From NCBI RefSeq assembly GCF_029223285.1, contig NZ_JARHUJ010000001.1, positions 620,001 to 684,000 on the forward strand: 64,000 bases of DNA, in the 5' to 3' direction. Origin of the DNA: Paraflavitalea sp. CAU 1676 (GTDB lineage Bacteria; Bacteroidota; Bacteroidia; Chitinophagales; Chitinophagaceae). Shown here piece after piece: positions 42,741 to 60,318 of the stretch (position 1 is the stretch's first letter; the number at the start of each line of letters is the position of its first letter). The notes under the pieces are model-generated. The model was not told the origin of the DNA. It made no database searches and saw nothing but the letters and a program-made list of their open reading frames with translations. The translations under genes and the position numbers were made by a program.

Positions 42741-43703
42741 ATGAAGAAACGTCCAGGCGATTTTTGGGGAGCTATGAAAAACTGGCTCATCCCGGAAAGT
42801 ACCCGGGAGATACCCATGCCGCTCACCAACAATGATATGCTGAATGAGTTGGTGGATTGTTTCGACGGATCATGCAAAACAGAATCGGTGGGCGCCAGTC
42901 TGGTATTCAATATGCACTTCCTGGTCATCCTGCATCCCGATGTCTACGAGCAACGTCTTCCCTCATTTCCGGTGGTGGTAAAAGAAGCAGTCAAGCTGTT
43001 CTACAAAAAACTCCAGGCATATAAAAAGAACTTCGAAGAGCTGTCACCCGTCTCCTCTCACTGGCAATTCAGGTTTGGGCCGGCTACTGATTTCAACGGC
43101 GAAACCATTAGTCCCTACGATATCAGGGTAGTGGGTATGTTAACTGGTATAAGGACAGGTTCCATGGGAGCCGAACGAAGGCATACGGCTAAAGTAACTA
43201 TGAAGTCGAAAGCCACCAATGTATTTGATAAGATGGATATCAACCTCGATGTATTGAGGCATATTCACTTTGCGGAGAGCGGCAACTTCACCGTCAAGTT
43301 CAGCAATGACCTTACCCTGGGCGGTGGCTCCCTGTTACGGCAGGCACGCAACAGCGATAACGGCTTCGCCAGGATCGAATACTTTCTGGGAGATAAGAAC
43401 AAGTCGGATGTCTATATCATGAAAGATACAGAGATCGTTATCGCCCGCCGTGAACCGGAAAACCAGGGCTACAACAATTATCTCCTGATAGATTCGACCT
43501 ACGTGTCCAACCCCCATGCCCGCATCAGGCTCAACGAGGCAACCGGCAAGTTCCAGATAGCGGCCTTCAGTGCCAACGAAACCCGGGTCAACGAAGTGGT
43601 GATCGCAAGAAGCGAGGTAAGCATGCCCCGTTGGTTCGACCTCGAACCCCAAAGCCAGATACTGTTGAATGGCATCATAACCCTTGAATTCAAACAACAA
43701 TAA
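42741..43703 (+). CDS. FHA domain protein, first gene of the phospho-signalling/cell-wall cluster
   Basis: 320 residues, no signal or membrane segment. The C-terminal ~95 residues are a forkhead-associated fold: TEIVIARREPENQGYNNYLL, TYVSNPHARIRL (S-x-x-H core) and TRVNEVVI; the usual GR of the first strand is ARR here. FHA domains bind phosphothreonine. Residues ~30-150 form a second domain (SLVFNMHFLVILHPDVYEQR, VVKEAVKLFYKKLQAYKKNF, HWQFRFGPATDFNGETIS) that recalls the N-terminal DUF3662 region of actinobacterial FhaA by pattern; a similar block occurs in the second FHA protein at 51124. Only one base separates its stop from the next ATG, so it is translationally coupled to the 27-residue peptide and then the phosphatase. 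Confidence 0.88.
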   Translation: MKKRPGDFWGAMKNWLIPESTREIPMPLTNNDMLNELVDCFDGSCKTESVGASLVFNMHFLVILHPDVYEQRLPSFPVVVKEAVKLFYKKLQAYKKNFEELSPVSSHWQFRFGPATDFNGETISPYDIRVVGMLTGIRTGSMGAERRHTAKVTMKSKATNVFDKMDINLDVLRHIHFAESGNFTVKFSNDLTLGGGSLLRQARNSDNGFARIEYFLGDKNKSDVYIMKDTEIVIARREPENQGYNNYLLIDSTYVSNPHARIRLNEATGKFQIAAFSANETRVNEVVIARSEVSMPRWFDLEPQSQILLNGIITLEFKQQ

Positions 43704-43704
43704 T

Positions 43705-43788
43705 ATGGGAGCGTTGGTCACTACATCCCTGTTGCTGGCATTCGTTGTGTTTGTATTGATCAGGCATTTCAAAAAACTGCCCCGATAA
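43705..43788 (+). CDS. 27-residue single-pass membrane peptide inside the FHA-PP2C-kinase operon
   Basis: A complete short frame ATG...TAA encodes one hydrophobic helix (GALVTTSLLLAFVVFVLIRH) with a basic tail HFKKLPR. It starts one base after the FHA stop (43703) and its stop ends one base before the phosphatase ATG (43790), so it exactly fills the space between two genes. The in-frame start, the hydrophobic core followed by positive charges and the tight packing argue for a real gene. Orientation would be N-out/C-in by the positive-inside rule. Function is unknown; a helper subunit for the membrane kinase, phosphatase or SEDS-PBP is the natural guess. Confidence 0.65.
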   Translation: MGALVTTSLLLAFVVFVLIRHFKKLPR

Positions 43789-43789
43789 A

Positions 43790-45241
43790 ATGAAGAACAT
43801 CCTCATAAACGGCAATACCGATCCGGGTAAACGACGCAAGGAGAACCAGGACGCCTGGATCGCCCGCCAGCTTTGGTCGGCCGATAACGCCCTGCTCGTG
43901 GTGATCGATGGGGTGGGTGGATACATGGGGGGCGAAAAGGCAGCAGCGATAGCGAAAGAAAGCATCGAGCAATACATGCAGCACCCCAAAGGGGATACGC
44001 TCACCATGTTGCGCGAAGCAGTCATCTACGCCAACAACCGGATCGTAGAGGAACGAAAAAATGATCAGCTGCTCAGCGAAATGTGCTGCGTGCTGACGGC
44101 AGTAGTAGCGGACGAAGCCAGTCAGTCGGTATACTATGTGCACGTAGGCGATACCCGGTTGTACCGGTTTCGCGCCGGCAACTTGCAAAAGCTCACGCGC
44201 GACCATTCATTTGTAGGCATCCGGGAAGATGCCGGCGAAATGACCGAAATGGAAGCTATGAACCATCCCCACCGCAACCAGATACTCCGCGAAGTAGGCT
44301 CGGCAACGCACCGGCTCGATGATGAAGACTTCATAGACTACGGCCGCGAAGAACTGTTGCCCGGCGATCACCTGTTGCTTTGCAGCGATGGCCTTACCGA
44401 TATGATCACCAGCCGGCAGGTAACCACCATTTTGTCGACCAGGCAGCCGCTGGGACATAAAGTGAATAGTCTCATCGCACTGGCCAATGAAATGGGTGGC
44501 AATGATAACATAACAGTAGTATTGTTCAAATTGAAGCCGGCTCCCGCCAAAAAGCAACTGACGGTGTCGGCGCCCGTTCCCAAACCAGCCACGGCAACCT
44601 TGCGGGAAACACCGGGGATAGCGGAGCTCGTCGAAGCATCTGCAACGGTCAATGATACGCCGACTTCCGCGGCTACGGAGCAGCCACGTCAGGAGATCCT
44701 CAACAAAAAAAGACCCGGCACCTGGGTCAAAGTGTATATCACAGCGTTGAGTCTTTTATTGATAGCCATCATTGGGTGGTACTTCACGCCACCGCGCAAT
44801 ATCGAAGTAATGCCGCCTGCCACGCTGCCCATCGACAGTATCCGCACCGGCACATCCGTACGGGTCAACCACACCGCAGTGCCCGGTCCTGTAGTGATAG
44901 AAAGTATTGATACGCTCCGGATCAACGGCACCCGGAGCTGGAGCAGTATTCAACATCACCTCGACAGCACGGGCAAAGCCCTGGTGTTGATGCCGGCAAA
45001 AAAAACGAACACCCGCTTCGCCGCTATCGAGATCAGCGACCGCAGCGCAAAGCCGGGCGATACCCTGGTAGTAAAGAACATCCGTTTCCAAAGTTTTGAA
45101 ACGGCTATTCGTGTTCTGGTCCCGGTGGTCATCAAAACCGATAACCTCTCATTTGAAAATATCAAATATCCATTCCTGCATCTTGTGAAAGCCGACAGCA
45201 GCCATTCCTCCCAATTGATCATGAACAACGTCAAGCGATAA
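43790..45241 (+). CDS. Membrane-anchored PP2C-type Ser/Thr phosphatase
   Basis: 483 residues. Residues 1-245 are a PPM/PP2C catalytic domain with metal ligands and signatures KENQDAWIA, VVIDGVGGYMGG, YYVHVGDTRLYRFRAG, DHLLLCSDGLTDMI and GGNDNITVVLF. A linker rich in Pro/Ala/Thr (~250-305) leads to one membrane helix (VYITALSLLLIAIIGWYF, ~315-332). The ~150-residue C-terminal part outside (RINGTRSWSSIQHHLDSTGK, PGDTLVVKNIRFQSFETAIR, NLSFENIKYPFLHLVKAD) has a beta-helix look. It should strip phosphate from Thr/Ser of proteins in the cytosol, opposing the kinase encoded 3 bases downstream. The layout (catalytic domain, helix, outer domain) is that of actinobacterial PstP, though the outer part is much larger here. 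Confidence 0.93.
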   Translation: MKNILINGNTDPGKRRKENQDAWIARQLWSADNALLVVIDGVGGYMGGEKAAAIAKESIEQYMQHPKGDTLTMLREAVIYANNRIVEERKNDQLLSEMCCVLTAVVADEASQSVYYVHVGDTRLYRFRAGNLQKLTRDHSFVGIREDAGEMTEMEAMNHPHRNQILREVGSATHRLDDEDFIDYGREELLPGDHLLLCSDGLTDMITSRQVTTILSTRQPLGHKVNSLIALANEMGGNDNITVVLFKLKPAPAKKQLTVSAPVPKPATATLRETPGIAELVEASATVNDTPTSAATEQPRQEILNKKRPGTWVKVYITALSLLLIAIIGWYFTPPRNIEVMPPATLPIDSIRTGTSVRVNHTAVPGPVVIESIDTLRINGTRSWSSIQHHLDSTGKALVLMPAKKTNTRFAAIEISDRSAKPGDTLVVKNIRFQSFETAIRVLVPVVIKTDNLSFENIKYPFLHLVKADSSHSSQLIMNNVKR

Positions 45242-45244
45242 ATC

Positions 45245-47002
45245 ATGGCTACTTCGATCTTTAAAGAATATTTTAAAGGCTACGAGATCCTCGGCGAGCT
45301 GGGCAGGGGTAACGCGCGTGTGTTAAAAGCGCGCAGTGTCCACAACGGCGAACTGGTGGCCATCAAGCACTTTGCATTCAATACTGATCCCGATACGCTG
45401 CGCCGCTTTCAACGCGAGTCGGAGATCATGAAATCCATACAGCACGAACACATCGTCAAAATACTGGAAGTACACCTCGATGCCGAGTTGCCCTACATTG
45501 TCATGCAACTCATCGAAGGAGGCGACCTGCGCAGTCTGCTCAGGAAGCACAATACACTCGATATACCTACCGTCATCAGGTTGGCCCATCACCTTACCGA
45601 AGCGCTGGATGCCATCCATGCCAATGCAGTGGTACACCGCGATGTAAAGCCGGAGAACATCATGTACCGGCGCCTGCCCACGGGTGAGATCCATTTCCTG
45701 CTCACCGATTTTGGGATCGCCAAGTTACGCGAGCAGTCGGATGGATTAACGGTTACTGGCGCCTCCATGCTTACTTACGACTACGCATCGCCCGAACAGT
45801 TCAATCAGTCGAAGAATGTGTCTACACCCACCGATTATTATTCACTGGGCGTAGTATTGTATGAATGCCTCACCGGCGTGGTGCCATTCGAATATGAGCA
45901 GGACGACCTGCTCATGCACATCAACCGCGTGATCGCATCGCCGATCCCCAAACCACAACTGCCGCCCGATACGTCCATGCCGCCCAGTTTGCAAATGTTG
46001 CTGGAAGGTCTGATGACCAAACAGGGATCTTACCGCCTCGCCGATCCTGTCCAGGTACGTCAGCTATTAAAGTTGGCAGCTATCGAAGACCTCCGCGGCA
46101 TCAGAACCTGGGCGCCGCCTGTCGATGAGACCCGTACGGTAAGATTCGTGCCGCCACCGAAACCAACACCATCTAAGAAAAGGGACATCACATTTATTGC
46201 AGTGGTGCTCCTGCTCATCAGCGCCGCAGTATTCTTTTCCTGGACAACCCTTGTACGGTCCCAGGCAAATGCGGCAGAAACAGAAGGGCCCGATCTTAAG
46301 CCAACGAGGGTACAGGAAATACAGTATGCCTCGGTGGGCGGAAAAAAGAAAATACCCGGAAATGTCATTCAGTCGCCTACAGTAGAGCCGCCATCGGGTA
46401 CTGTGGAGGAACAGCCAACCACCAACAACCACCAGCCGGGTATAGCATTGAACCACGGTATCTACTACAATGACTTCAGCGAGCCGGTAGACAGTGTGTG
46501 GGATATTGGCCGCGATGAGACCAGCGAATTCAACCTGGCCGATGGCAAGTATGTAATGAAAGGGTATGCCGATAGTCTGAGCTATTCTACGGCAGTAAAG
46601 TTTAACCTCGATACCCATAAGGATTTTACCATGTCGGTCAATGCCACCCATTGGGGCGATAGCGCTGGCGATCCCTTTGGCCTCAATTTCTGCGGCGATC
46701 AGCAGCAGGACGCGTGGTTCGTCTTTTACATCACCTCCAATGGTTATTATTCAATTGGTACACTCGTGAAAGACGAATGGAATGTGATCGTAGACTGGAC
46801 AGCATCGTCGATCATCAGGCCCGATGCTGGAATGAACATGCTGACTGTAGAAAAACAAGGTAGCAGCTTGCGTTTTCTCATCAATGACCGGCTCGAAAAA
46901 ACTTTGACCTATAATGGAGGCTTCGGCAATTACTTTGGCCTCCGCGTTGATGGAGCACAAACCGTATCATTTGATCAATTGATCGTAAAAGGATCACAAT
47001 AA
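45245..47002 (+). CDS. Membrane-anchored Hanks-type Ser/Thr protein kinase with jelly-roll-like outer domain
   Basis: 585 residues. The kinase domain (12-280) is complete: glycine loop GELGRGNARVLKA, ATP lysine K41 (VAIK), catalytic H131-R-D-V-K-P-E-N138, D155-F-G157, and ASPEQF in place of APE. Candidate activation-loop threonines are in LTVTGASMLTY. A Pro/Lys linker precedes one helix (ITFIAVVLLLISAAVFF, ~315-332). The outer part has a linker and then, from ~residue 420, a concanavalin/jelly-roll-like domain (YYNDFSEPVDSVWDIGRDE, FTMSVNATHWGDSAGDPFGL, GNYFGLRVDGAQTVSFDQLI). PknB-type kinases of Gram-positives carry PASTA repeats here; none is seen. Flanked by PP2C upstream and the SEDS-PBP fusion 17 bases downstream. 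Confidence 0.94.
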   Translation: MATSIFKEYFKGYEILGELGRGNARVLKARSVHNGELVAIKHFAFNTDPDTLRRFQRESEIMKSIQHEHIVKILEVHLDAELPYIVMQLIEGGDLRSLLRKHNTLDIPTVIRLAHHLTEALDAIHANAVVHRDVKPENIMYRRLPTGEIHFLLTDFGIAKLREQSDGLTVTGASMLTYDYASPEQFNQSKNVSTPTDYYSLGVVLYECLTGVVPFEYEQDDLLMHINRVIASPIPKPQLPPDTSMPPSLQMLLEGLMTKQGSYRLADPVQVRQLLKLAAIEDLRGIRTWAPPVDETRTVRFVPPPKPTPSKKRDITFIAVVLLLISAAVFFSWTTLVRSQANAAETEGPDLKPTRVQEIQYASVGGKKKIPGNVIQSPTVEPPSGTVEEQPTTNNHQPGIALNHGIYYNDFSEPVDSVWDIGRDETSEFNLADGKYVMKGYADSLSYSTAVKFNLDTHKDFTMSVNATHWGDSAGDPFGLNFCGDQQQDAWFVFYITSNGYYSIGTLVKDEWNVIVDWTASSIIRPDAGMNMLTVEKQGSSLRFLINDRLEKTLTYNGGFGNYFGLRVDGAQTVSFDQLIVKGSQ

Positions 47003-47019
47003 AACACCAGGTAACATCC

Positions 47020-50000
47020 ATGGCCGAAAAGGTAGCCAATACCAATAAAGCAGTCCGCAGAGAAGGATGGTTGCTGCTCACCGGAGCAGCGATCGTACTA
47101 CTGATACTTTTCTATCAGCTCTACCAGGCATTGCTGCCACAGCTCGATCGTACCGACAAACTATTGAAAGAAGGAGCTGCCGTAAAGCTGGAACGCGTCA
47201 TCAGCAAAGATCGCCTGCGAAAAGTGATAGCCGATGGCAGTTACTTCACCGATCCGCGCGACATTAGTTTACTGGTCGATTCGCTCGCGGCACGCCTGCT
47301 CACCACCGGCGAGCCTGATAACCTTGGCGCACTGAATAAAAGCGGATTTGCCATCACCGCCCCATTGGACTGGCAGCCCACTATTGGCGGGCCAGATTTT
47401 GCCGGGCGCTTACTGGCATCACGACAAAGGCTTGGGTTCGATTCTGCTTTATACGTACAGGAGTTAACCGGCCCCGTCAGCAGGGAATTGTTGAGTGGAG
47501 CGTCCTCATCGGGAACAGGGCGGGTCACCATTGCAAACGGCGACCAGGAAATGACGGGGCAGGTCCTGTACAAGGGGCAACCGATGCCGGGTGTGCTCGT
47601 GCAGTTAAGGGAACACATACCCTCCCTCGACGAAGACTCCCTTACGGGTATCATTGGTTATGCCCGTACCGATGCGAAAGGGGCATTCAACTTTGCGGGG
47701 CTGAACCGCGATTCAGGATACAGCGTATTACCACTAAAACCAGGCTTTGAGTTTGGCAGCCGTAAAGGGATCGCATCACTCAATGGAAAGGCCTACTACA
47801 CGTTTACTGCAAAACCTCATAAAGTACGACTCATCGGTTCGATCATCTATGGGCAATTGAAGGAAGATGGAGTGCTGATCGTGCGTACGCCCGAAGAGTT
47901 CAAAATGCTTTACCAGGTGATAGCTGGAGGCCTCCTCCTTGCCTTCTTCCTTGTTCAGCTCATATTGTCGGTCAGGAAACGCCAGCCCGATGCCTTTCTG
48001 TTACCCATCCTCCTATTGCTTTGCGGCATTTCGCTCCTGACGTTATTTAGTATACAAAACCCGCTTACCGATTCACTGCACGCCTTTCAAACCCTGCAGG
48101 GCATAGCAGCAGGGCTGACAGGCTATACCGTGCTGGCCACAGTCAACATCGGCAAGTGGTATACCCGCTGGTGGTTTGATGGATTGTTCAATTTCCGGCA
48201 AAAGAATATTTATCAGCAGAAAGGCTGGACCTGGCTCGCGCTGGCCATCCTCCTGGCATTGCTTACCGTATTCATCGGCACCGGCCCCGAAGGGAGTGGC
48301 GTAAAAGTGAACCTGCAACTGGGAGGCTTTACTTTTCAACCAAGTGAGATCACCAAGTACCTGCTGTTGTTCTTCCTGGCAGCCTTCTTTGCCGCTAATG
48401 AAGAGCATATCCGGAACTTCTCGGATATACGGTGGCGCTTGTATATCAATTGGAGTGTATTTGCAGGCATAGCCACCATTCTTATGCTTTACCTGCTCAT
48501 GGGTGATATGGGACCGGCATTGGTGGTATGTTTCACCTTCCTGTTCTTTTATAGTATCGCGCGCGGCAACCTGCTGCTGACGGTATCCGCCGGCGCGGGT
48601 TATGCGATCCTGCTCGCTCTTTTGCCGGGGTGGATAGCAACCGCAGCTGCCCTGGTGCTGGTGTTGATCGCCTCATTGATCAAAGGCCACCTGCGCAGCA
48701 CCAAATGGTTTGGAGCCTTCGCGGCAATTGCCGATGCACCGGTCATCATCATCATGGTCATAGCCGCATTTGCCTTCGGCGACCGGGTGCCCGGCATCGG
48801 CCAGCGCCTTGCCGATCGTAAATCAATGTGGCTAAGTCAATGGAACAATGATGTGTTTGGGGGCGATCACCTTGCTCACAGTTATTGGACGCTTTCCTCG
48901 GGAGGTTTTACCGGCCAGGGCATCGGTAAGGGTTTCCCCAATACCATGCCCGCATCGCATACCGATATGATATTGCCGAGCATTGGGGAAGAACTTGGCT
49001 GGCTGGGCCTCGTGGCCGTGTTGTTGTTATTCGGCATCCTCATTCACCGCACCTTTCTCATAGCACGTCGTTCCGGACAACCGTTCACCTTTTACCTCAG
49101 TGCTGGAATAGCGATCACCATTGGCATACAATTACTCATCATAGCGGGCGGGTCTATTGGCTTGCTGCCGCTTACGGGCGTAGCGGTTCCTTTTCTCAGT
49201 TATGGCAAAATATCACTGATCATCAACCTGGCCGCCCTGGGCATTGTGGCGGGTATTTCGGCCCGGGAAGGGCAGGAGGTGCAGCGCGAGCGCATCCAGA
49301 AAAGTTACGACCCCGTACTGGCAACCGGCATCATCTTCTTCCTGCTGGGTATAGGCATACTGGCCGCAAAGCTGCTCATGGTGCAGGTCGTCGATCGGGA
49401 TAAATACATCGTTAAGCAGGCGCGGGTGGTCATGCGCAATGGAATACCAGTATATAGCTACAATCCCCGCATCGATAAGCTGATGAAATTGCTGGCAGCT
49501 GGTAATGTATATGACCGAAACGGATTGGTCCTCGCCACCAGTGAAGCAGGAGCCATACAACACAATATCGATTCACTGCAAAAGGCAGGCATCCCCAAAG
49601 AAAAACTCACGGAGCTGATGCAGAAAAGGGTGCGGCGCTTTTATCCTTTTGGTGAGCACTTGTATTTCTGGACGGGCGATTACAATACCCGGTTGTTCTG
49701 GGGCCAGGCCAACGGGTATTTTGCCGAAGCACGCCACCTAACCGCCCTGCGGGGATTTGGCATCAACCGCGAAATACAGGACTCTGTGTACACCCTGTAC
49801 CAGCCCGATAGGTTTACCAGGCCATTCCATAAAACCGTGCCCATGGTTCGGTACGACTACACAGCCCTGGTAGAAGGATTGAAAAGCGGGGTCGATAGCA
49901 ACCAGGCGCCAATAAAAAAGATCAGGGATAAGGATCGCAGCCTCTATCTGTCGGTGGATGCAGCCCTGCAGGTGGAGATACAGGACTCGCTCCGCAATAG

Positions 50001-51072
50001 CCTGTTTAACCACAAACGCATATCGGTAGTAGTGCTCAATGCCACAACAGGCGACGTGCTGGCCTCGGCCCTCAATCCATTGCCCAATCTGCAGTCGCCC
50101 GAGCTCATGGAATTACCCGATAGGGAACGCATACGCCTGGAGGCGCCCGTCACCGAACGCGATCTGGGAATGACGTATGCTACCGCACCCGGTTCAACTG
50201 CCAAGATACTCACCGCCATGGCAGGCCTCAATAAAATGGGTATGCCGGCAACCGAAGTGAAGTATAATGACATCTTCCGGCAGGAGATCTTCCGGGATAA
50301 TAAAAAGGAACAGGAGCCATTTATACCCAAAGTGCCCTTCGTGGATATGCGCGAGGCGATCATCAACTCCAGCAACATCTTCTTCATCAGGTTGGCCAAT
50401 GAGCAATACCTCGAAGAGGAAATGGCCGCCTTATACGAAGCAACTGGAATGAACATCGAACAAAGAGGCGGTTATAATTATTCCCTGCCCGGTGACCAAC
50501 TCAAACTGTCGGGCGACCTCGCTGCCTGGAGAGAAGAGGTATTGAACGGAGACCACAAACAATATAACAATCCCAATTACAAAGGCACCACCAAAAGATA
50601 CCGCAGTGTATTCTCCGGACTTGCCTGGGGACAAAGTGTATTGACGGCAACCCCTGCATCGATGGCCCGCATGGCAGGTGGCATCGCCAATGGAGGTGTG
50701 TTGCAGCCATCGCGCTACGTTACACAACAGGAGGGGAAACAACTGCCATTGCAGGAACCCGTTAAACTGGCGAAGGATACGGCCTATGCAGGTGTGTTGC
50801 GCCGCTTCATGATCGATCAGTCCAGTACAACCGGCAGGTATAAGATCAAAGAGATGAAGGTGGCCGGTAAAACAGGAACGCCCGAACGCATTATCAAAGG
50901 TGAGAAGGAGTCCGACGGCTGGTACGTATTCTTTGCGCCCACACCCGATCAAACATCTTATACAGTTACCTGTATCCGTATAGAAGAAGGTCAAAGTTCG
51001 GCCAATGCAGTGCTGTTGGGAAACACCGTGGCAAAGATCCTGGCGAAAAGAGCCTATATCAGTTCATTCTAA
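47020..51072 (+). CDS. RodA/FtsW (SEDS) glycosyltransferase fused to class B penicillin-binding transpeptidase
   Basis: 1350 residues. A first helix (~16-36) and an outer segment (~40-295) with a carboxypeptidase-regulatory/Ig-like fold (MTGQVLYKGQPMPGVLVQL, ARTDAKGAFNFAGLNRDSGY) precede a SEDS core (~297-760): FQPSEITKYLLLFFLAAFFA, SSGGFTGQGIGKGFPNTMP, SHTDMILPSIGEELGWLG with the presumed catalytic D649, and GVAVPFLSYGKISLI. After a further helix (~775-795) comes a transpeptidase with NVYDRNGLVLA, S1059-T-A-K1062, S1117-S-N1119 and K1284-T-G-T1287, all intact. SEDS proteins polymerise glycan from lipid II and class B PBPs cross-link it; they normally are separate partner proteins. Both activities are predicted in one chain, on the outer face of the inner membrane. 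Transcribed directly behind the kinase gene. Confidence 0.93.
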   Translation: MAEKVANTNKAVRREGWLLLTGAAIVLLILFYQLYQALLPQLDRTDKLLKEGAAVKLERVISKDRLRKVIADGSYFTDPRDISLLVDSLAARLLTTGEPDNLGALNKSGFAITAPLDWQPTIGGPDFAGRLLASRQRLGFDSALYVQELTGPVSRELLSGASSSGTGRVTIANGDQEMTGQVLYKGQPMPGVLVQLREHIPSLDEDSLTGIIGYARTDAKGAFNFAGLNRDSGYSVLPLKPGFEFGSRKGIASLNGKAYYTFTAKPHKVRLIGSIIYGQLKEDGVLIVRTPEEFKMLYQVIAGGLLLAFFLVQLILSVRKRQPDAFLLPILLLLCGISLLTLFSIQNPLTDSLHAFQTLQGIAAGLTGYTVLATVNIGKWYTRWWFDGLFNFRQKNIYQQKGWTWLALAILLALLTVFIGTGPEGSGVKVNLQLGGFTFQPSEITKYLLLFFLAAFFAANEEHIRNFSDIRWRLYINWSVFAGIATILMLYLLMGDMGPALVVCFTFLFFYSIARGNLLLTVSAGAGYAILLALLPGWIATAAALVLVLIASLIKGHLRSTKWFGAFAAIADAPVIIIMVIAAFAFGDRVPGIGQRLADRKSMWLSQWNNDVFGGDHLAHSYWTLSSGGFTGQGIGKGFPNTMPASHTDMILPSIGEELGWLGLVAVLLLFGILIHRTFLIARRSGQPFTFYLSAGIAITIGIQLLIIAGGSIGLLPLTGVAVPFLSYGKISLIINLAALGIVAGISAREGQEVQRERIQKSYDPVLATGIIFFLLGIGILAAKLLMVQVVDRDKYIVKQARVVMRNGIPVYSYNPRIDKLMKLLAAGNVYDRNGLVLATSEAGAIQHNIDSLQKAGIPKEKLTELMQKRVRRFYPFGEHLYFWTGDYNTRLFWGQANGYFAEARHLTALRGFGINREIQDSVYTLYQPDRFTRPFHKTVPMVRYDYTALVEGLKSGVDSNQAPIKKIRDKDRSLYLSVDAALQVEIQDSLRNSLFNHKRISVVVLNATTGDVLASALNPLPNLQSPELMELPDRERIRLEAPVTERDLGMTYATAPGSTAKILTAMAGLNKMGMPATEVKYNDIFRQEIFRDNKKEQEPFIPKVPFVDMREAIINSSNIFFIRLANEQYLEEEMAALYEATGMNIEQRGGYNYSLPGDQLKLSGDLAAWREEVLNGDHKQYNNPNYKGTTKRYRSVFSGLAWGQSVLTATPASMARMAGGIANGGVLQPSRYVTQQEGKQLPLQEPVKLAKDTAYAGVLRRFMIDQSSTTGRYKIKEMKVAGKTGTPERIIKGEKESDGWYVFFAPTPDQTSYTVTCIRIEEGQSSANAVLLGNTVAKILAKRAYISSF

Positions 51073-51123
51073 ATCAGCCGGCGTAGTGGTAGGTCCGCAT
51101 CGCTGGTAACAAAGCTTATTACA

Positions 51124-52002
51124 ATGAAGAACCTGTTCAACAAACTTAAAAAGAGCTTCGGCATCGCCGAATTGCCAGCTGTTGAAGAAACCGTCGCCAC
51201 TACACCCGAAGAACCGGTATCGACCTTTGTGCCCGTAACGCCTGTGAAGCGCGATGCCATCATCAGGTTCATCATACAGTCGCTGAAGCCTTATGTAGAT
51301 GAAAAGAGTATGTCGGTAGCGGGCATCCGCCTATATGTATTGTGCAATAGCCAGGAGCAGGAAGAAGCGGCAAAGATCGCCCTGTATGCCGATAAGCCGG
51401 GCATGTTCCGTACGGAACACCTCGAACGGAAGCTGTTGAATCACTTTATACAACTCGAACCATCCTGGTACTTTGAGTTCCAGATCGTGAAAGACCAACT
51501 GCCCGAAAACTGTATACAACAGGGCAACTATGGAATTAAAGTAACCCGCGCAGGCGATCATGTGGTAGAGAAGTATACAACGGCCATCCTGCAGGTATTG
51601 GTAGGGCAAACCGATCAGTTCGAATACCTGCTCGATCCGCACCAGCAGCTGCGCTTTAATATTGGCCGGAGCAAATCTCCCCAATTGGCTACAGGTAAGA
51701 TACAACTGAATGACATTGTGTTCCTGGCGTCGGGCGAAGCTGGTTTTGATGAAGGCTTGGGTAAAGCCAACCTGCATGTAAGCCGCAACCACGCGTATAT
51801 CATCTACGATCCTAAAAACAATAAATACTTATTGTATCCTGATAAAGGTGGCCTGCCCGATAGTGGCAATAAACTCAAGGTCCACACCACCGACGACAAG
51901 ATCAAGCAGCTTAATATGTACGGAATAGGCCATCACCTGCAGGATGGTGATCAGATAGAGTTAGGCGGAGAGGCAGTGCTGCGCTTTAAAGGCGGCAGCT
52001 AG
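51124..52002 (+). CDS. Second FHA domain protein of the cluster
   Basis: 292 residues, soluble. The FHA domain occupies the C-terminal ~120 residues: RFNIGRSKSPQLATGKIQLN (GRS core), ANLHVSRNHAYIIYDPKNNK (SRNH core), DGDQIELGGEAVLRF. A ~100-residue domain before it (MSVAGIRLYVLCNSQEQEEA, FRTEHLERKLLNHFIQLEPS, WYFEFQIVKDQLPENCIQQG) has the same layout as the N-terminal block of the FHA protein at 42741, again recalling FhaA-type DUF3662. It starts 51 bases after the SEDS-PBP stop and is last in the run. It probably reads phosphothreonine marks set by the kinase; targets are unknown. Confidence 0.88.
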   Translation: MKNLFNKLKKSFGIAELPAVEETVATTPEEPVSTFVPVTPVKRDAIIRFIIQSLKPYVDEKSMSVAGIRLYVLCNSQEQEEAAKIALYADKPGMFRTEHLERKLLNHFIQLEPSWYFEFQIVKDQLPENCIQQGNYGIKVTRAGDHVVEKYTTAILQVLVGQTDQFEYLLDPHQQLRFNIGRSKSPQLATGKIQLNDIVFLASGEAGFDEGLGKANLHVSRNHAYIIYDPKNNKYLLYPDKGGLPDSGNKLKVHTTDDKIKQLNMYGIGHHLQDGDQIELGGEAVLRFKGGS

Positions 52003-52010
52003 CCCAAAAC

Positions 52011-52394
52011 TCACAATACCAGGTCGGCATGTAACTTCTCCAAAGTAGCCATCGGGTCAATACAAAAGCCAGGATGTACTTTCGAACACTGCACCACGGT
52101 ACTGCGGGTAGCGGTAAGCCACCGGAAACGCGAGGCCATATCGAGGCGGGCAATGGGGCCACCCGCAGGCAATCCCAGGCATATATGTTCAAATGCGCAT
52201 AAATAGGCCTTTACCTCTTCTACGTCCAGCTTTGGACAAAAAACACGAAGCCGCTCGATGTCCAGTGTATATTTGGCTTGCAGGAAAGACGGTTTCTTGC
52301 AATACAACACGACACCCACATTGAGGAATTCCTCCCGCTCAACGCGTGGCACCACCCGGATCACCGCATACTCAAATAAGTGTTGTTCTTGCAT
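52011..52394 (-). CDS. DUF3037 family protein
   Basis: 127 residues. The start MQEQHLFEYAVIRVVPRVER and the following EEFLNVGVVLYCKKPSFLQ are the hallmark of DUF3037, a small cytosolic family. Its start overlaps the 3' end of the HipA-like kinase gene by 23 bases, so the two are translationally coupled; such pairs are recurrent in bacteria. The job of DUF3037 is unknown. It converges with the second FHA gene with 8 bases between stops. Confidence 0.9.
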   Translation of the reverse strand: MQEQHLFEYAVIRVVPRVEREEFLNVGVVLYCKKPSFLQAKYTLDIERLRVFCPKLDVEEVKAYLCAFEHICLGLPAGGPIARLDMASRFRWLTATRSTVVQCSKVHPGFCIDPMATLEKLHADLVL

Positions 52395-53166
52395 ACATTG
52401 CTTCTTTTACAAAGATCGGGGAGGAGGCTACCCGCGACAATAAAAACTGAACATAAACTTCCCGGCGCCCGGCAGCATCGATGTCGGCATCGCCGCCCGT
52501 CAGCCATTCCCCGGGCACAAGGTCTACAATATTTCTGATCCGCTCTTCCGTCAACAAAGGCGCAAAAGCAGCATCTACTGTTTCCAGCTCTCCTGCCTGT
52601 GGCAACAATACATGGTCTTTTACCTGTGTAAAAGGCTTTTTGGAATGCTCCTCCCAATTGGTCCAGGAGTGATGAAAGTACAGCGCGGCGCCATGGTCTA
52701 TCAACCACAACTCTTTATTCCATACCAGCATATTGGTATTGCGGGCCGTGCGGTCTACATTCATTAGCAGGCAATCGAGCCACACGATGTGTGAAGCCAG
52801 CAGTGAAGGCAGTTTCAAAACTGCCGGGTCATAGGTGATAGATCCCGATAAATAATGCAGGCCCAGGTTCAAGCCTACACTGGCTTTTAAAAGGTCCTGA
52901 ATCTCTTCATCCGGTTCCGTGCGTCCAAAAGCAGTGTCGAGGTTGGCAAAAACGATCTCAGGGATCTTAAATCCCAGCAGCCGCGCTACTTCACCCCCGA
53001 TCAGTTCAGAGATCAAAGCCTTTGGCCCCTGGCCTGCGCCCCTGAACTTCAGCACGTATAAAAAGCCATCATCCGCTTCCGCGATAGCAGGCAGAGACCC
53101 CCCTTCGCGCAGGGGCGTCACGTACCGGATCACATTTACCGTTCTTAATTGAGGTCTGTTGTCCAT
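52372..53166 (-). CDS. HipA-like kinase family protein (SPII-type fold)
   Basis: 264 residues from ATG 53166 (MDNRPQLRTVNVIRYVTPLR); a longer frame to 53235 starts with non-family sequence. The N-lobe is LREGGSLPAIAEADDGFLYV with the lysine in VLKFRGAGQGPKAL. The C-lobe holds the catalytic loop LLMNVDRTARNTNMLVWNKE (D...N) and the metal-binding DHG in LWLIDHGAALYFH. Unlike HipA toxins it lacks the N-subdomain-1 region, is much shorter, and has no HipB-like antitoxin gene next to it. The overlapping DUF3037 gene is its probable partner. A protein or small-molecule kinase role is plausible; toxin activity is unproven. Confidence 0.88.
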   Translation of the reverse strand: MDNRPQLRTVNVIRYVTPLREGGSLPAIAEADDGFLYVLKFRGAGQGPKALISELIGGEVARLLGFKIPEIVFANLDTAFGRTEPDEEIQDLLKASVGLNLGLHYLSGSITYDPAVLKLPSLLASHIVWLDCLLMNVDRTARNTNMLVWNKELWLIDHGAALYFHHSWTNWEEHSKKPFTQVKDHVLLPQAGELETVDAAFAPLLTEERIRNIVDLVPGEWLTGGDADIDAAGRREVYVQFLLSRVASSPIFVKEAMYARTTLI

Positions 53167-53305
53167 AACTACATGATTAAGCCAATACACCACATCCGAA
53201 TGCACCGGCATAAACTGCTGCCAAATTAAACCCAATTTTCAACTTGTACAAACGAACACCATCACGCTTAATTTTCCTAATTTCATCCCCAAATCAGCGG
53301 CAGCA

Positions 53306-56691: not shown

Positions 56692-59600
56692 ATGAAAAAA
56701 CAATTATATACCCTCCTCCTCCTTCTTCTTGGCTGTGCATTCCTCGCAAAGGCGCAGGACAGCATCGTGTACCGCGTCATCCTCATTGGCGATGCAGGGG
56801 AGATCAGCAAAGAACAGAAGCATCTTATACCACAGGCAGCCGGAATGGTGAAGAATGGAAAAACATCCGTCGTTTACCTTGGTGATAATATATATCCTAA
56901 AGGCATGGGCCTTCCCGGATCAAAGAACGAAAAGAGCACACAGGATATCCTGCGCTCACAGTTCACACCCATGCGAAGCAACGGGGCATCGGTCTATTTT
57001 GTACCCGGCAATCACGATTGGGATAGAATGGGAAAAAATGGATTGGCAAAGATCCAGGCTCAGTCAACATTCCTCGCGCAGCAGAATGACACACTGCTTA
57101 AAATGGCGCCGGCCGATGGATGCCCCGATCCGCAGGAGATCAACGTAAGCGAAAACCTCACTATCATTGCGTTCGACAGCGAATGGTGGCTATTCCCTTA
57201 TAACAAAGACAACAAAGCAAACTGCAGTTGCAATAGCAAGGAAGAAGTGGTCGCCAAAATCATAGAGCTCCTCTACAGGAACAGGCACAAGCAAATATTG
57301 CTGGCATCACACCACCCCTTTCAGTCATATGGACATCATGGAGGATATTACTCGATCATCGATCACCTCTTTCCTTTTACGGCCGTTAATAAGAATCTTT
57401 ACATACCATTACCCATCATTGGATCGCTGTACCCCATCCTGCGCAAAGCGATCGTCAACCCGGAAGATATGGGACATCCATTGTACAAGGGGATGATCAA
57501 GAACATCAGCGCGATCTCCGACCGGGTAGCCAACCTCGTTTATGTAGCCGGGCATGAGCACGGATTACAGTTCATTAAAAGCTCACAAAAACAGGTCGTC
57601 AGTGGGGCTGGTGCTAAAAAGAACTACGCAAAAAAAGGAAAGAATGCCTTGTTTGCCTCCAGCCAGGCTGGCTTTGTAACGGCAGATCTGCTCACAAACA
57701 ACGATCTGCGGTTTACGTATTATACCTCAACAGAAGAAGGCATAAAGCCGGCATTCACCTATACCCAGGAATATGTGCCGGTAAAGGAAATTGAAAGACT
57801 GGCCATCAAAGCCATCCCCGAAGATAGCGTCAGCATGGTGCCCCTCGCCCGGTTCGATAGTGTTGGTAAAACCCATCGCTGGCTCTTTGGCGAAAACTAC
57901 CGCAAGGATTATGCAACGGAAACGACCTTCCCCGTTATCCGCATCTCGCAGATAAAAGGCGGATTAACACCTAGCCGCCTCGGCGGCGGCCACCAATCCA
58001 AATCACTGCGCCTGCTGGATAAAGATGGAAAAGAATGGGCGCTGCGCAGCGTAGAGAAATATCCCGATGTACTGTTGCCCGAAGAGCTGCGCGAAACCTT
58101 TGTGAAAGACCTGCTCTCCGATAACATGTCATCCAACTATCCCTACGGAGCGCTGGTAGTGCCCCCCATCGCCAACCTGCTGGGTATACCACATTCCAAT
58201 CCCATTATCGGTTATGTAGCACCTGATACTGCCCTCGGCATATATACCAATACATTCGCCAACACGCTTTGCCTGCTCGAAGAACGTGAACCGCTCGGTG
58301 AGTCCGACAACACGCCCAAAATGCGGCGCAAGGTTGATGAAGACAACGACAATAGCTTCGATAGCACGCTCTACCTACGCGCACGCATGCTTGATCTGCT
58401 GGTAGGCGATTGGGACCGGCACGAAGACCAATGGCGCTGGTATCCCGAAAAAGATGGTAAAGGGAAGAAATACCTGGCCGTACCGAGAGATCGTGATCAG
58501 GTGTTTTACATCAATGATGGCGTGGTGCCGGGCATGGCCAAATGGAGATGGTTGTTGCCATTCCTCCAGGGCTTCAAAAGCGATTACCACAACATCGAAG
58601 GCATCCTGTGGGAAAGCCGCGCCCTCAATGGTCGCTTCCTGGTGCAGTTTGGTTACGACGACTGGATGCGCATCACCAACGAATTTGTAGCCGCGGTGAC
58701 CGACTCCGTATTGGAAGAGGGCCTGAAGCGGTTGCCGGCAGCAGCTTACCGGATGCGGCACGACGAGTTCCTGAAGATATTGAAAGACAGGAGAGACAAT
58801 CTGCCCAAAGCCATGAAGCGCTATTACACTTTCCTCAATAAGATCGTCGATATAAAAGTGTCCGATAAGCATGAGTTGGTGAAGATCACTGATGCGCCCA
58901 ATAACGGGATTACTATACAGATCAACAAGCTGTCAAAAAGCAGAAAGGCCGAAGACCAGTTATTTACAAAAACCTTCGATCCATCCGCTACCAGGGAAGT
59001 GAGGCTCTACCTGTCAAAAGGCAATGATAGTGTCCTGATTAACAATGCCAATAACGGAGTAAAGCTGCGTATCATTGGTGGAGAAGGCAGTAAAACATAC
59101 GAAGTGGCCGAGGGCCGGGGTGGCATTAAGTTGTACGAAAGAAAAGACAACGCCGTGTTCGCCGGAAGCGAAGGCAGGTTGCGCAAACGCATGTCCAACG
59201 ACAGTGCCCATACATCCTTCAATCCCGTCGATCTGTACAATGTAACCCAGCCGCTTGCCTCTATTGGCCTCAACGTTGACGATGGATTCCTCCTTGGCGT
59301 AGGCTTCAGGCATGTGCGCAGGCAGGGATTCCGCAAAAAGCCCTATACGAAGGTCTCGCAATATTCAGGACTCCAGCAGTTGCTGGTATCGCATTCCTTT
59401 TCTACCAAAGCCTATAAGATTGATTATAAGGGTGAGTTTATACAAGCCCTGGGTAAAGCCGATATCATTACCCAGGCGATCATCAAGGCGCCCAACAATA
59501 CGATCAACTTCTTTGGCCGTGGCAATGAGTCGGAGTTCATCAAGTTCAACAACTTTAAAACATATTACCGCACCCGGTTCAATACATACCAGGCATGGGC

Positions 59601-60318
59601 TGCGCTGCGTTGGGGCACCACCAAAGGAAGCAGTATCAGTGTAGGCCCGGCTGCGCAGGTGTATCGTTTCGACGATGAAGGCAACAAAGGACGCTTCATT
59701 GAGAATACATCTGAGATCGGTTCCTACGACAGCGCCACCATTGCCGACGATAAAGCCCACGCAGGTGTCATCGTTAATTATATAGTCGACAAAAGGAACA
59801 ATCCCATACTCACCATGTGGGGTACCTACCTCAACGTACGCCTGCAAGGATTTGCCGGACTGAATACCTATTCCAAATCATTTGCCCAGCTGATACCGGA
59901 ATTCTCTTTCTATACACCGCTTAATGCAAAAGGGTCGGTCGTGCTGGCCAACCGCATTGGCGGTGCGTTAACCCTGGGGAAAACCACCTTCTATCAATCC
60001 GTCTTCCTGGGTGGCCACGAAAACCTGCTCGGTTACAGGCAATACCGTTTCGCCGGAGACCATAGTCTCTATAATAACTTTGAGTTGCGTGTAAAACTCG
60101 CAGAAGTAGGTGGATATGTATTGCCGGGCATCATGGGGCTTATTGGCTTCTACGATGTAGGCCGTGTATGGCAGAAGGATGAGCAATCCCGCAAATGGCA
60201 TAGCGGAGCAGGGGGTGGATTGTTCTTTGCGCCAGCCCAAATGATCGTAGTGCGCGCATTGGCAGGTTGGTCCAATGAAGGCTGGCTGCCATTCATAGTA
60301 GTGGGCATGCGGTTCTGA
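56692..60318 (+). CDS. Metallophosphoesterase / kinase-like / outer-membrane barrel fusion protein
   Basis: 1208 residues. Signal peptide 1-21 (MKKQLYTLLLLLLGCAFLAKA). Residues ~25-340 are a calcineurin-type phosphoesterase with every metal motif: ILIGDAGE, VYLGDNIYPKG, FVPGNHDWDRMG, LLASHHPFQSYGHHGG and VAGHEHGLQF. Residues ~385-780 hold a domain with LLVGDWDRHEDQWRWY (G572-D-W-D-R-H-E-D579) and LAVPRDRDQVFYIND, resembling the catalytic core of CotH/HipA-like kinases; this is inference. From ~850 to the end, beta strands with LGGHENLLGYRQYRFAGDHS and LMGLIGFYDVGRVW-type wording (GIMGLIGFYDVGRVWQ) match the surface antigen/BamA barrel, ending in a terminal Phe (VVGMRF). The protein should sit in the outer membrane. 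It directly follows ppk1. Confidence 0.9.
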   Translation: MKKQLYTLLLLLLGCAFLAKAQDSIVYRVILIGDAGEISKEQKHLIPQAAGMVKNGKTSVVYLGDNIYPKGMGLPGSKNEKSTQDILRSQFTPMRSNGASVYFVPGNHDWDRMGKNGLAKIQAQSTFLAQQNDTLLKMAPADGCPDPQEINVSENLTIIAFDSEWWLFPYNKDNKANCSCNSKEEVVAKIIELLYRNRHKQILLASHHPFQSYGHHGGYYSIIDHLFPFTAVNKNLYIPLPIIGSLYPILRKAIVNPEDMGHPLYKGMIKNISAISDRVANLVYVAGHEHGLQFIKSSQKQVVSGAGAKKNYAKKGKNALFASSQAGFVTADLLTNNDLRFTYYTSTEEGIKPAFTYTQEYVPVKEIERLAIKAIPEDSVSMVPLARFDSVGKTHRWLFGENYRKDYATETTFPVIRISQIKGGLTPSRLGGGHQSKSLRLLDKDGKEWALRSVEKYPDVLLPEELRETFVKDLLSDNMSSNYPYGALVVPPIANLLGIPHSNPIIGYVAPDTALGIYTNTFANTLCLLEEREPLGESDNTPKMRRKVDEDNDNSFDSTLYLRARMLDLLVGDWDRHEDQWRWYPEKDGKGKKYLAVPRDRDQVFYINDGVVPGMAKWRWLLPFLQGFKSDYHNIEGILWESRALNGRFLVQFGYDDWMRITNEFVAAVTDSVLEEGLKRLPAAAYRMRHDEFLKILKDRRDNLPKAMKRYYTFLNKIVDIKVSDKHELVKITDAPNNGITIQINKLSKSRKAEDQLFTKTFDPSATREVRLYLSKGNDSVLINNANNGVKLRIIGGEGSKTYEVAEGRGGIKLYERKDNAVFAGSEGRLRKRMSNDSAHTSFNPVDLYNVTQPLASIGLNVDDGFLLGVGFRHVRRQGFRKKPYTKVSQYSGLQQLLVSHSFSTKAYKIDYKGEFIQALGKADIITQAIIKAPNNTINFFGRGNESEFIKFNNFKTYYRTRFNTYQAWAALRWGTTKGSSISVGPAAQVYRFDDEGNKGRFIENTSEIGSYDSATIADDKAHAGVIVNYIVDKRNNPILTMWGTYLNVRLQGFAGLNTYSKSFAQLIPEFSFYTPLNAKGSVVLANRIGGALTLGKTTFYQSVFLGGHENLLGYRQYRFAGDHSLYNNFELRVKLAEVGGYVLPGIMGLIGFYDVGRVWQKDEQSRKWHSGAGGGLFFAPAQMIVVRALAGWSNEGWLPFIVVGMRF

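Follow-up and report, generated by a model that had tools for sequence, protein, structure and literature searches.

The window analysed here, a stretch of 64,000 nucleotides from Paraflavitalea sp. CAU 1676 (contig NZ_JARHUJ010000001.1, positions 620,001 to 684,000), carries between its positions 42741 and 52002 six genes on the + strand, coding for an FHA-domain protein (FHA1), a membrane peptide of 27 amino acids (aa), a PP2C phosphatase, a Ser/Thr kinase, a fusion of a SEDS protein with a class B penicillin-binding protein (PBP; the fusion is termed SEDS::PBP) and a second FHA-domain protein (FHA2). Our analysis of this locus and its relatives suggests that it is probably an accessory, mobile peptidoglycan-synthase module, gated by phosphothreonine signalling and separate from the two canonical SEDS genes (FtsW-type and RodA-type). 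As described in the initial annotation of this DNA, the genes lie on one strand and close together, with intergenic gaps of 1, 1, 3, 17 and 51 bases, and polymerase and transpeptidase are fused, FTSW_RODA_SPOVE (169 bits) and Transpeptidase (94.7 bits) being matched above the Pfam cut-off in a single 1350-aa protein. PP2C_2 (53.3 bits) and Pkinase (159.2 bits) were also matched above cut-off, and the FHA matches of the two FHA genes lay below it (16.7 and 15.1 vs 20.7 bits).

A scan of GTDB contigs for the fusion returned six loci (three from Niastella and one each from Pseudobacter, Paraflavitalea and a Chitinophagaceae metagenome-assembled genome), all with one gene order and one of them, L005, cut at its 5' end (our labels start with L for loci, G for genomes and f for families). 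With a seven-row fusion alignment, and with the window's own genome included in both counts, the fusion was found at family level in 23 of 195 genomes, spread over 14 of 101 genera (E<=1e-60), and at phylum level in 15 of 395 genomes, from 9 of 171 genera (E<=1e-100), so that the original attribution to Gram-negative Bacteroidota at large proved too wide. A profile of the SEDS part by itself retrieved the same 15 phylum genomes, in all cases within open reading frames (ORFs) of at least 1222 aa. We compared 40 loci, comprising the window, the six of the initial scan, a copy on a Spirosoma plasmid and 32 fetched with their flanks from 35 places in family and phylum genomes (the other three were the window, the place of L003 in G175 and a fragment in G191); 39 are distinct, as L005 and L066 are identical in their fusion protein and were counted once. 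The loci were read with hidden Markov models built in this analysis, and the plasmid row rests on RefSeq names.

Five of these loci (L074-L078) belong to other classes of the phylum and the remaining 34 distinct loci to the window's class, in which FHA1, PP2C, SEDS::PBP, FHA2 and at least one kinase gene were all present in 31 of the 34, the three incomplete ones (L052, L065 and L005/L066) being cut by contig ends. The gene order is not unique to this genome, since it recurs in other genera and families, and the flanking genes vary among groups while the module persists. The place of the kinase differs among three groups. In the window's clade it stands between PP2C and the fusion, a position that holds two kinases in L067, L068 and the plasmid. 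A second set (L053-L060, L062 and L065) has it downstream of FHA2, and a third (L061, L063, L064 and L069-L073) has kinases on both sides. The FHA1 profile (E<=1e-5) matched 13 of the 395 phylum genomes, all of them within the 15 fusion genomes (full-length in ten, and over the FHA part alone in three, two of these being outside copies), and gave no match in the other two fusion genomes. In the 8.84 Mb genome that hosts the window, PF00498 (FHA) was matched twice at E<=1, both times in the module. The recurring order in other genera and families, these sole FHA matches and the restriction of the FHA1 profile to fusion genomes rule out that the six genes are chance neighbours. Taken together, these results bear out the earlier claim that kinase, phosphatase, FHA and SEDS-PBP genes form a conserved module, which brings together the same functions as the actinobacterial pstP locus.

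The SEDS motif HTD and the transpeptidase motifs SxxK, SxN and K[T/S]G were kept in 40/40 fusion rows (39 distinct), the last as KTG in 37 and KSG in three, and Asp649 of the SEDS part aligned with D262 of Escherichia coli RodA, which we take to be its catalytic residue. The PP2C motif residues (e.g. D21, D40-G44, D121, D200-G201 and D239-N240) were invariant in 26/26 proteins, and the K, E, HxD and DFG elements were kept in all 31 aligned kinases, with HxD reading HRD in the window's clade and HGD, HND or HRD elsewhere. Because the catalytic motifs are kept across the fusion, PP2C and kinase rows, the enzymes of the module look active. The PP2C, FHA1 and FHA2 alignments held 26 rows each, and the kinase alignment omits the kinases of L001-L006, L050, L064, L066, L071-L073, L077, L078 and L086.

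Each of the nine genomes checked (the window's own and eight others) has three SEDS loci in all, namely the fusion and two others of canonical size. In a tree of 24 of the 40 fusion rows and 20 canonical SEDS rows, the fusions formed one side of a branch with a support of 100/100. Of the canonical rows, some grouped with E. coli RodA and the rest formed another group that we termed FtsW-type by elimination, the position of E. coli FtsW being weakly supported (46/0), and the program issued a long-branch warning that included E. coli FtsW and the fusions. The fusion did not reach the cut-offs of the ftsW and rodA models. By these sequence comparisons the SEDS part of the fusion is placed in a clade of its own, apart from canonical FtsW and RodA. 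A single 1384-aa ORF (L078:8012-12166), from a genome in a different class of the phylum, codes for PP2C::SEDS::PBP with PP2C at the N-terminus. Both L077 and L078 have a lytic transglycosylase gene with LysM and SLT domains between a WD40-bearing kinase and FHA1 (the kinase domain of L077 starts at the edge of the stretch), and we read this neighbour and the PP2C::SEDS::PBP fusion as likely further signs of a wall function.

On the signalling side, the phosphothreonine-binding FHA residues of FHA2 (GR and SRxH) were invariant in 26/26 aligned proteins, and Pfam FHA at E<=0.05 was matched in 25/26 FHA2 and 8/26 FHA1 proteins; the FHA2 alignment had no match at E<=0.1 among PDB sequences, which counts against its FHA identity. 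A search with the AlphaFold2 model of FHA1 (mean pLDDT 82.3) returned FHA domains as top matches (best E 1.0e-6, probability 1.00, target TM 0.82), and among the best 50 of 621 matches all lay on the FHA part and none named FhaA_N. The fold search, together with the profile comparison described below, ruled out that FHA1 is no FHA protein, as its sub-cut-off Pfam score might have implied. In L077:12321-13691 and L078:12229-13503 the counterparts of FHA2 carry an N-terminal HEPN_Swt1 domain. A hydrophobic membrane helix was predicted after the catalytic domain in 23/26 PP2C proteins and 29/31 kinases, and the model of the kinase (mean pLDDT 72.6) has an ectodomain rich in beta structure at about 429-583. 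PASTA was found in none of the 31 kinases scanned (families matched at E<=0.01). Two of the 31 aligned kinases carry an FHA match, and three tandem kinase genes follow FHA2 in L056:12951-18304. The membrane peptide between FHA1 and PP2C was found in 21 of 26 loci, with a length of 22-36 aa, or longer in some where there are possible upstream starts, and also in all five loci of the initial scan that extend to it.

Judged by RefSeq names, which are given gene by gene, a complete copy of the module with two kinases lies on plasmid unnamed7 of Spirosoma oryzicola (L086, NZ_CP089545.1). The module tree, likewise built with 24 of the 40 fusion rows, did not unite the 14 rows of family f1 (Chitinophagaceae by names) in a clade, and constraining them to be monophyletic was rejected (p-AU 9.9e-36), the group being a taxon that was tested after the SEDS tree had been viewed. 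Beside the window's clade stood the f10 rows together with the Spirosoma plasmid copy (99/99), rows of f3 were nested in the second f1 set (100/100), and f1 rows stayed together in both canonical SEDS groups. Judged from these trees and counts, the module is patchy and conflicts with family taxonomy. Either transfer between families or duplication and loss would account for this conflict, and because of the plasmid copy we favour transfer as its probable cause.

If the module acts as we propose, the SEDS::PBP fusion would polymerize lipid II and crosslink the product within one polypeptide, while the membrane kinase, through its beta-rich ectodomain, and the membrane PP2C, through its periplasmic tail, would sense the envelope and set the phosphothreonine level on the cytosolic side. 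FHA2, with its canonical phosphothreonine-reader motif, and FHA1, as an FhaA-like adaptor with a degenerate FHA domain, would bind phosphorylated partners along with the membrane peptide; their docking would switch the synthase on or off, the fusion making peptidoglycan when licensed, and PP2C would reset the switch. We infer the enzymatic activities, the topology, the phospho-targets, the direction of the switch, the sensed signal and the control of wall synthesis by the kinase. Several observations weigh against this proposal. No PP2C or kinase match was found within the 20 kb read around the fusion in three loci of other classes (L074-L076), and the kinase/phosphatase arm is not universal near the fusion. 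The predicted helix is absent from 3/26 PP2C proteins and 2/31 kinases, the kinase ectodomain had no credible match among PDB sequences, the FHA motif of FHA1 is degenerate (GR is absent, and Ser is absent in many rows), and in five of 26 loci (L057, L060 and L071-L073) no membrane peptide was seen between FHA1 and PP2C.

The relation to the actinobacterial locus turns largely on FHA1. In the other-class loci, this protein combines FhaA_N, a domain of actinobacterial FhaA, with FHA: in L074 FhaA_N scored 27.4 bits (cut-off 25) and FHA 47 bits, and in L078 FhaA_N scored 17.7 bits, below cut-off. FhaA_N was matched at E<=0.01 in five of the 395 phylum genomes, above cut-off in G206, G225 and G319 and below it in G222 and G366, and the five coincide exactly with the other-class genomes that carry the fusion; in three of them it was matched outside the module too. 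Corynebacterium glutamicum was the only match among 14 control genomes. In L077, an FhaA_N-type FHA1, PP2C, SEDS::PBP and FHA2 follow the order of the window. Extra FhaA_N-type genes outside the module were observed in f19 genomes, three of them next to a protein of 1130-1168 aa (L100-L102), another within an FHA-FhaA_N-PP2C run (L099) and one alone (L103). Pfam did not match FhaA_N in the FHA1 of the window or elsewhere in the window's genome. A profile comparison of whole window-type and FhaA_N-type FHA1 proteins gave a probability of 97.3 (E 1.7e-11, 268 columns), whereas splitting the proteins gave 98.0 for the FHA parts alone and 20.4 for the N-terminal parts alone (E 0.0011, 70 colinear columns; four controls gave E 0.19 to 0.76). 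The whole-protein score is thus carried by the FHA domain and is not by itself a sign that the window's FHA1 is homologous to FhaA over its whole length. At the level of these profiles, the FHA-domain link of the window's FHA1 to that of the other classes is firm and an FhaA_N link is suggestive, and FHA1 orthology across classes rests also on position, together with the FHA domain.

The SEDS, PBP and PP2C parts were compared with Actinobacteria through proteins of known structure in the PDB, a comparison that included no actinobacterial RodA. With broader profiles, FtsW ranked above RodA for the SEDS part (142 vs 95 bits) and MrdA above penicillin-binding protein A (PbpA) for the PBP part (128 vs 104 bits), while PP2C was nearest to 5iti (137 bits) and 2j82 (136 bits), both presumably cyanobacterial, followed by Stp1 (104 bits) and PstP (91 bits). 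By these rankings, none of the three seems nearest to the actinobacterial proteins of known structure. No FHA gene was found between FHA1 and PP2C, the position of fhaB, in the loci read.

The initial annotation had offered ancient transfer and convergent assembly as explanations. That the whole actinobacterial fhaA-fhaB-pstP-rodA-pbpA-pknA-pknB locus was transferred, with rodA and pbpA fused later, seems unlikely to us. The restriction of FhaA_N to fusion genomes, with C. glutamicum as its sole match among the controls, speaks for it, as does the FHA1-PP2C-SEDS::PBP-FHA2-kinase order of L053-L060 and L062, which is near the actinobacterial order as given in that annotation; an earlier, narrower profile had also placed PbpA first among PBPs (45 bits). 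With the broader profiles, however, the nearest structures were FtsW, MrdA and non-actinobacterial PP2C proteins, and PASTA was missing from all the kinases scanned, so that these comparisons do not support transfer of the whole locus. Convergent assembly, in which widespread signalling domains became associated independently with a SEDS-PBP enzyme and any likeness to FhaA_N is weak or separate, we regard as doubtful. It would fit the modest FhaA_N scores (29.6 bits at best, three of five genomes above cut-off and none in the window's genome), the low score of the N-terminal parts once the FHA domain is removed, and the variation of the kinases by clade (HRD, HGD and HND). It is harder to reconcile with the exact coincidence of the five FhaA_N genomes with the five other-class fusion genomes, with the gene order of L077 and with the colinearity of the N-terminal match, which stands apart from its four controls. 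Thus, the idea of convergence was weakened by FhaA_N in the other-class genomes and keeps some ground in the weak match of the window's own N-terminal domain.

A further reading takes the locus as a SEDS-PBP machine of a third kind, mobile and self-contained, gated by phosphothreonine and made as one polypeptide, whose FhaA-type adaptor shares ancestry with the actinobacterial locus, with kinases repeatedly swapped around a constant FhaA-PP2C-SEDS::PBP core. FhaB has a membrane anchor, and the 27-aa peptide in the place of fhaB would be a leftover or counterpart of it, the FHA part having moved to FHA2. We put this reading forward tentatively and with low confidence; because the split comparison showed that the FHA domain carries the FHA1 score, our confidence in this reading was lowered a little and that in convergence raised by a similar step. 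It is quite improbable, in our judgement, that the kinase, phosphatase and FHA proteins serve signalling in general and share an operon with the synthase without acting on it. Bacterial kinases are often pleiotropic, and those found here vary in number (three in L056) and in place, but the order is kept across several families, PP2C is fused to SEDS-PBP in L078 and the genome has its sole FHA matches in the module. An accessory, phosphothreonine-gated synthase module thus remains the explanation that we prefer.

The features of the locus are listed in Table 1. Genome-wide, Pkinase was matched twice and PP2C_2 three times, each with one match in the module, Transpeptidase was matched seven times, and one of the three SEDS loci lies in the module; the sole other Pkinase match (G000:C1:1183098-1184740) adjoins another PP2C. 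Bacteroidota-type promoter matches with two mismatches each were found upstream of FHA1 and before PP2C, a class with a background of about 0.7 per 300 bases in the window. Sigma-70-like sites (9 found vs 9.5 expected) and terminator-like sites (13 found vs 10.6 expected) were also near background, and the scan placed neither kind on the + strand at any gene junction of the module. Because promoter and terminator matches were near background, it is the intergenic gaps that suggest a single transcript. Directly downstream of FHA2 lies a DUF3037 and HipA_2 kinase-like gene pair (52011-53235, - strand), also present near the module in L004, L047 and L048, and at 56692-60318 (+ strand) a single ORF codes for a 1208-aa protein with Metallophos and Omp85 domains. 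Family f4 proteins of 151-179 aa, of which several begin like lipoproteins and carry a YYYPxxNxYYD-like motif, adjoin the module in L053, L054, L056, L057, L058, L059 and L062; the one scanned had no Pfam match.

Table 1. Genes of the module and their parts (positions in the window; residue numbers within each protein)
Feature	Position	Strand	Description
FHA1	42741..43703	+	320 aa; N-terminal alpha/beta domain and degenerate C-terminal FHA; same place in the module as the FhaA_N+FHA proteins of other-class relatives
Membrane peptide	43705..43788	+	27 aa; single-pass, basic tail
PP2C phosphatase	43790..45241	+	483 aa; one predicted membrane helix 315-333; C-terminal tail, probably periplasmic
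Hanks-type Ser/Thr kinase	45245..47002	+	585 aa; predicted membrane helix 315-333; beta-rich ectodomain ~429-583 (model)
SEDS::class B PBP fusion	47020..51072	+	1350 aa
SEDS::PBP, N-terminal part			Membrane helix 16-34; region ~40-295, probably periplasmic; sub-threshold CarboxypepD_reg match 179-252
SEDS::PBP, catalytic parts			SEDS ~324-749 (Asp649); transpeptidase 1002-1326 (Ser1059, SSN 1117-1119, KTG 1284-1286)
FHA2	51124..52002	+	292 aa; FHA motif residues G181 R182, S220 R221, H223

Were the module to work as proposed, control of peptidoglycan synthesis by phosphothreonine, which has been investigated chiefly in Actinobacteria and Firmicutes, would be available as a portable unit in Gram-negative bacteria. 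The fused polymerase and crosslinker, joined in one genome by the phosphatase, would offer a compact system for SEDS switching, which is hard to isolate in the essential divisome or elongasome, and the FhaA_N link would make the origin of the actinobacterial locus testable. Adjacency of SEDS and class B PBP genes, perhaps even their fusion, has reportedly been remarked on in print. Among the titles listed in our search of the open-access literature, none dealt with the module or with a natural SEDS-PBP fusion, which is no proof of novelty, and FtsW and RodA are not mentioned in the main text of a 2025 PP2C survey (PMC12088040).

In Actinobacteria, phosphatase, SEDS, PBP and kinase genes are linked in one locus, and mycobacterial FhaA and its locus have been tied to wall synthesis and polar growth, according to excerpts of two papers (PMC6554272, PMC11898655). 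The module shares with this pstP locus (fhaA, fhaB, pstP, rodA, pbpA, pknA and pknB) its functional set, a membrane PP2C and a membrane kinase (by predicted helices), the phosphatase-SEDS-PBP-kinase linkage and, in the other-class relatives, an FhaA_N-type first gene. It differs in that SEDS and PBP are fused and bear an extra N-terminal region, the SEDS part stands apart from FtsW and RodA, PASTA was not found in the 31 kinases, the second FHA gene follows the synthase, most loci have a membrane peptide of 22-36 aa between FHA1 and PP2C, and the module is patchy, with a plasmid copy. Like the Stp1/PrpC and Stk1/PrkC PASTA kinase pairs, PP2C and the Hanks-type kinase are adjacent in the window's clade, and the NCBIfam models were matched below their cut-offs (Stp1 194.8 of 230, Stk1 189.8 of 450); unlike these pairs, the module has kinases without PASTA and is linked to SEDS::PBP and FHA genes. 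With RodA-PBP2 and FtsW-FtsI it has in common polymerase and transpeptidase domains whose active-site residues are conserved, whereas in the module the two form one polypeptide, encoded by a third SEDS gene beside the two canonical ones in all nine genomes checked.

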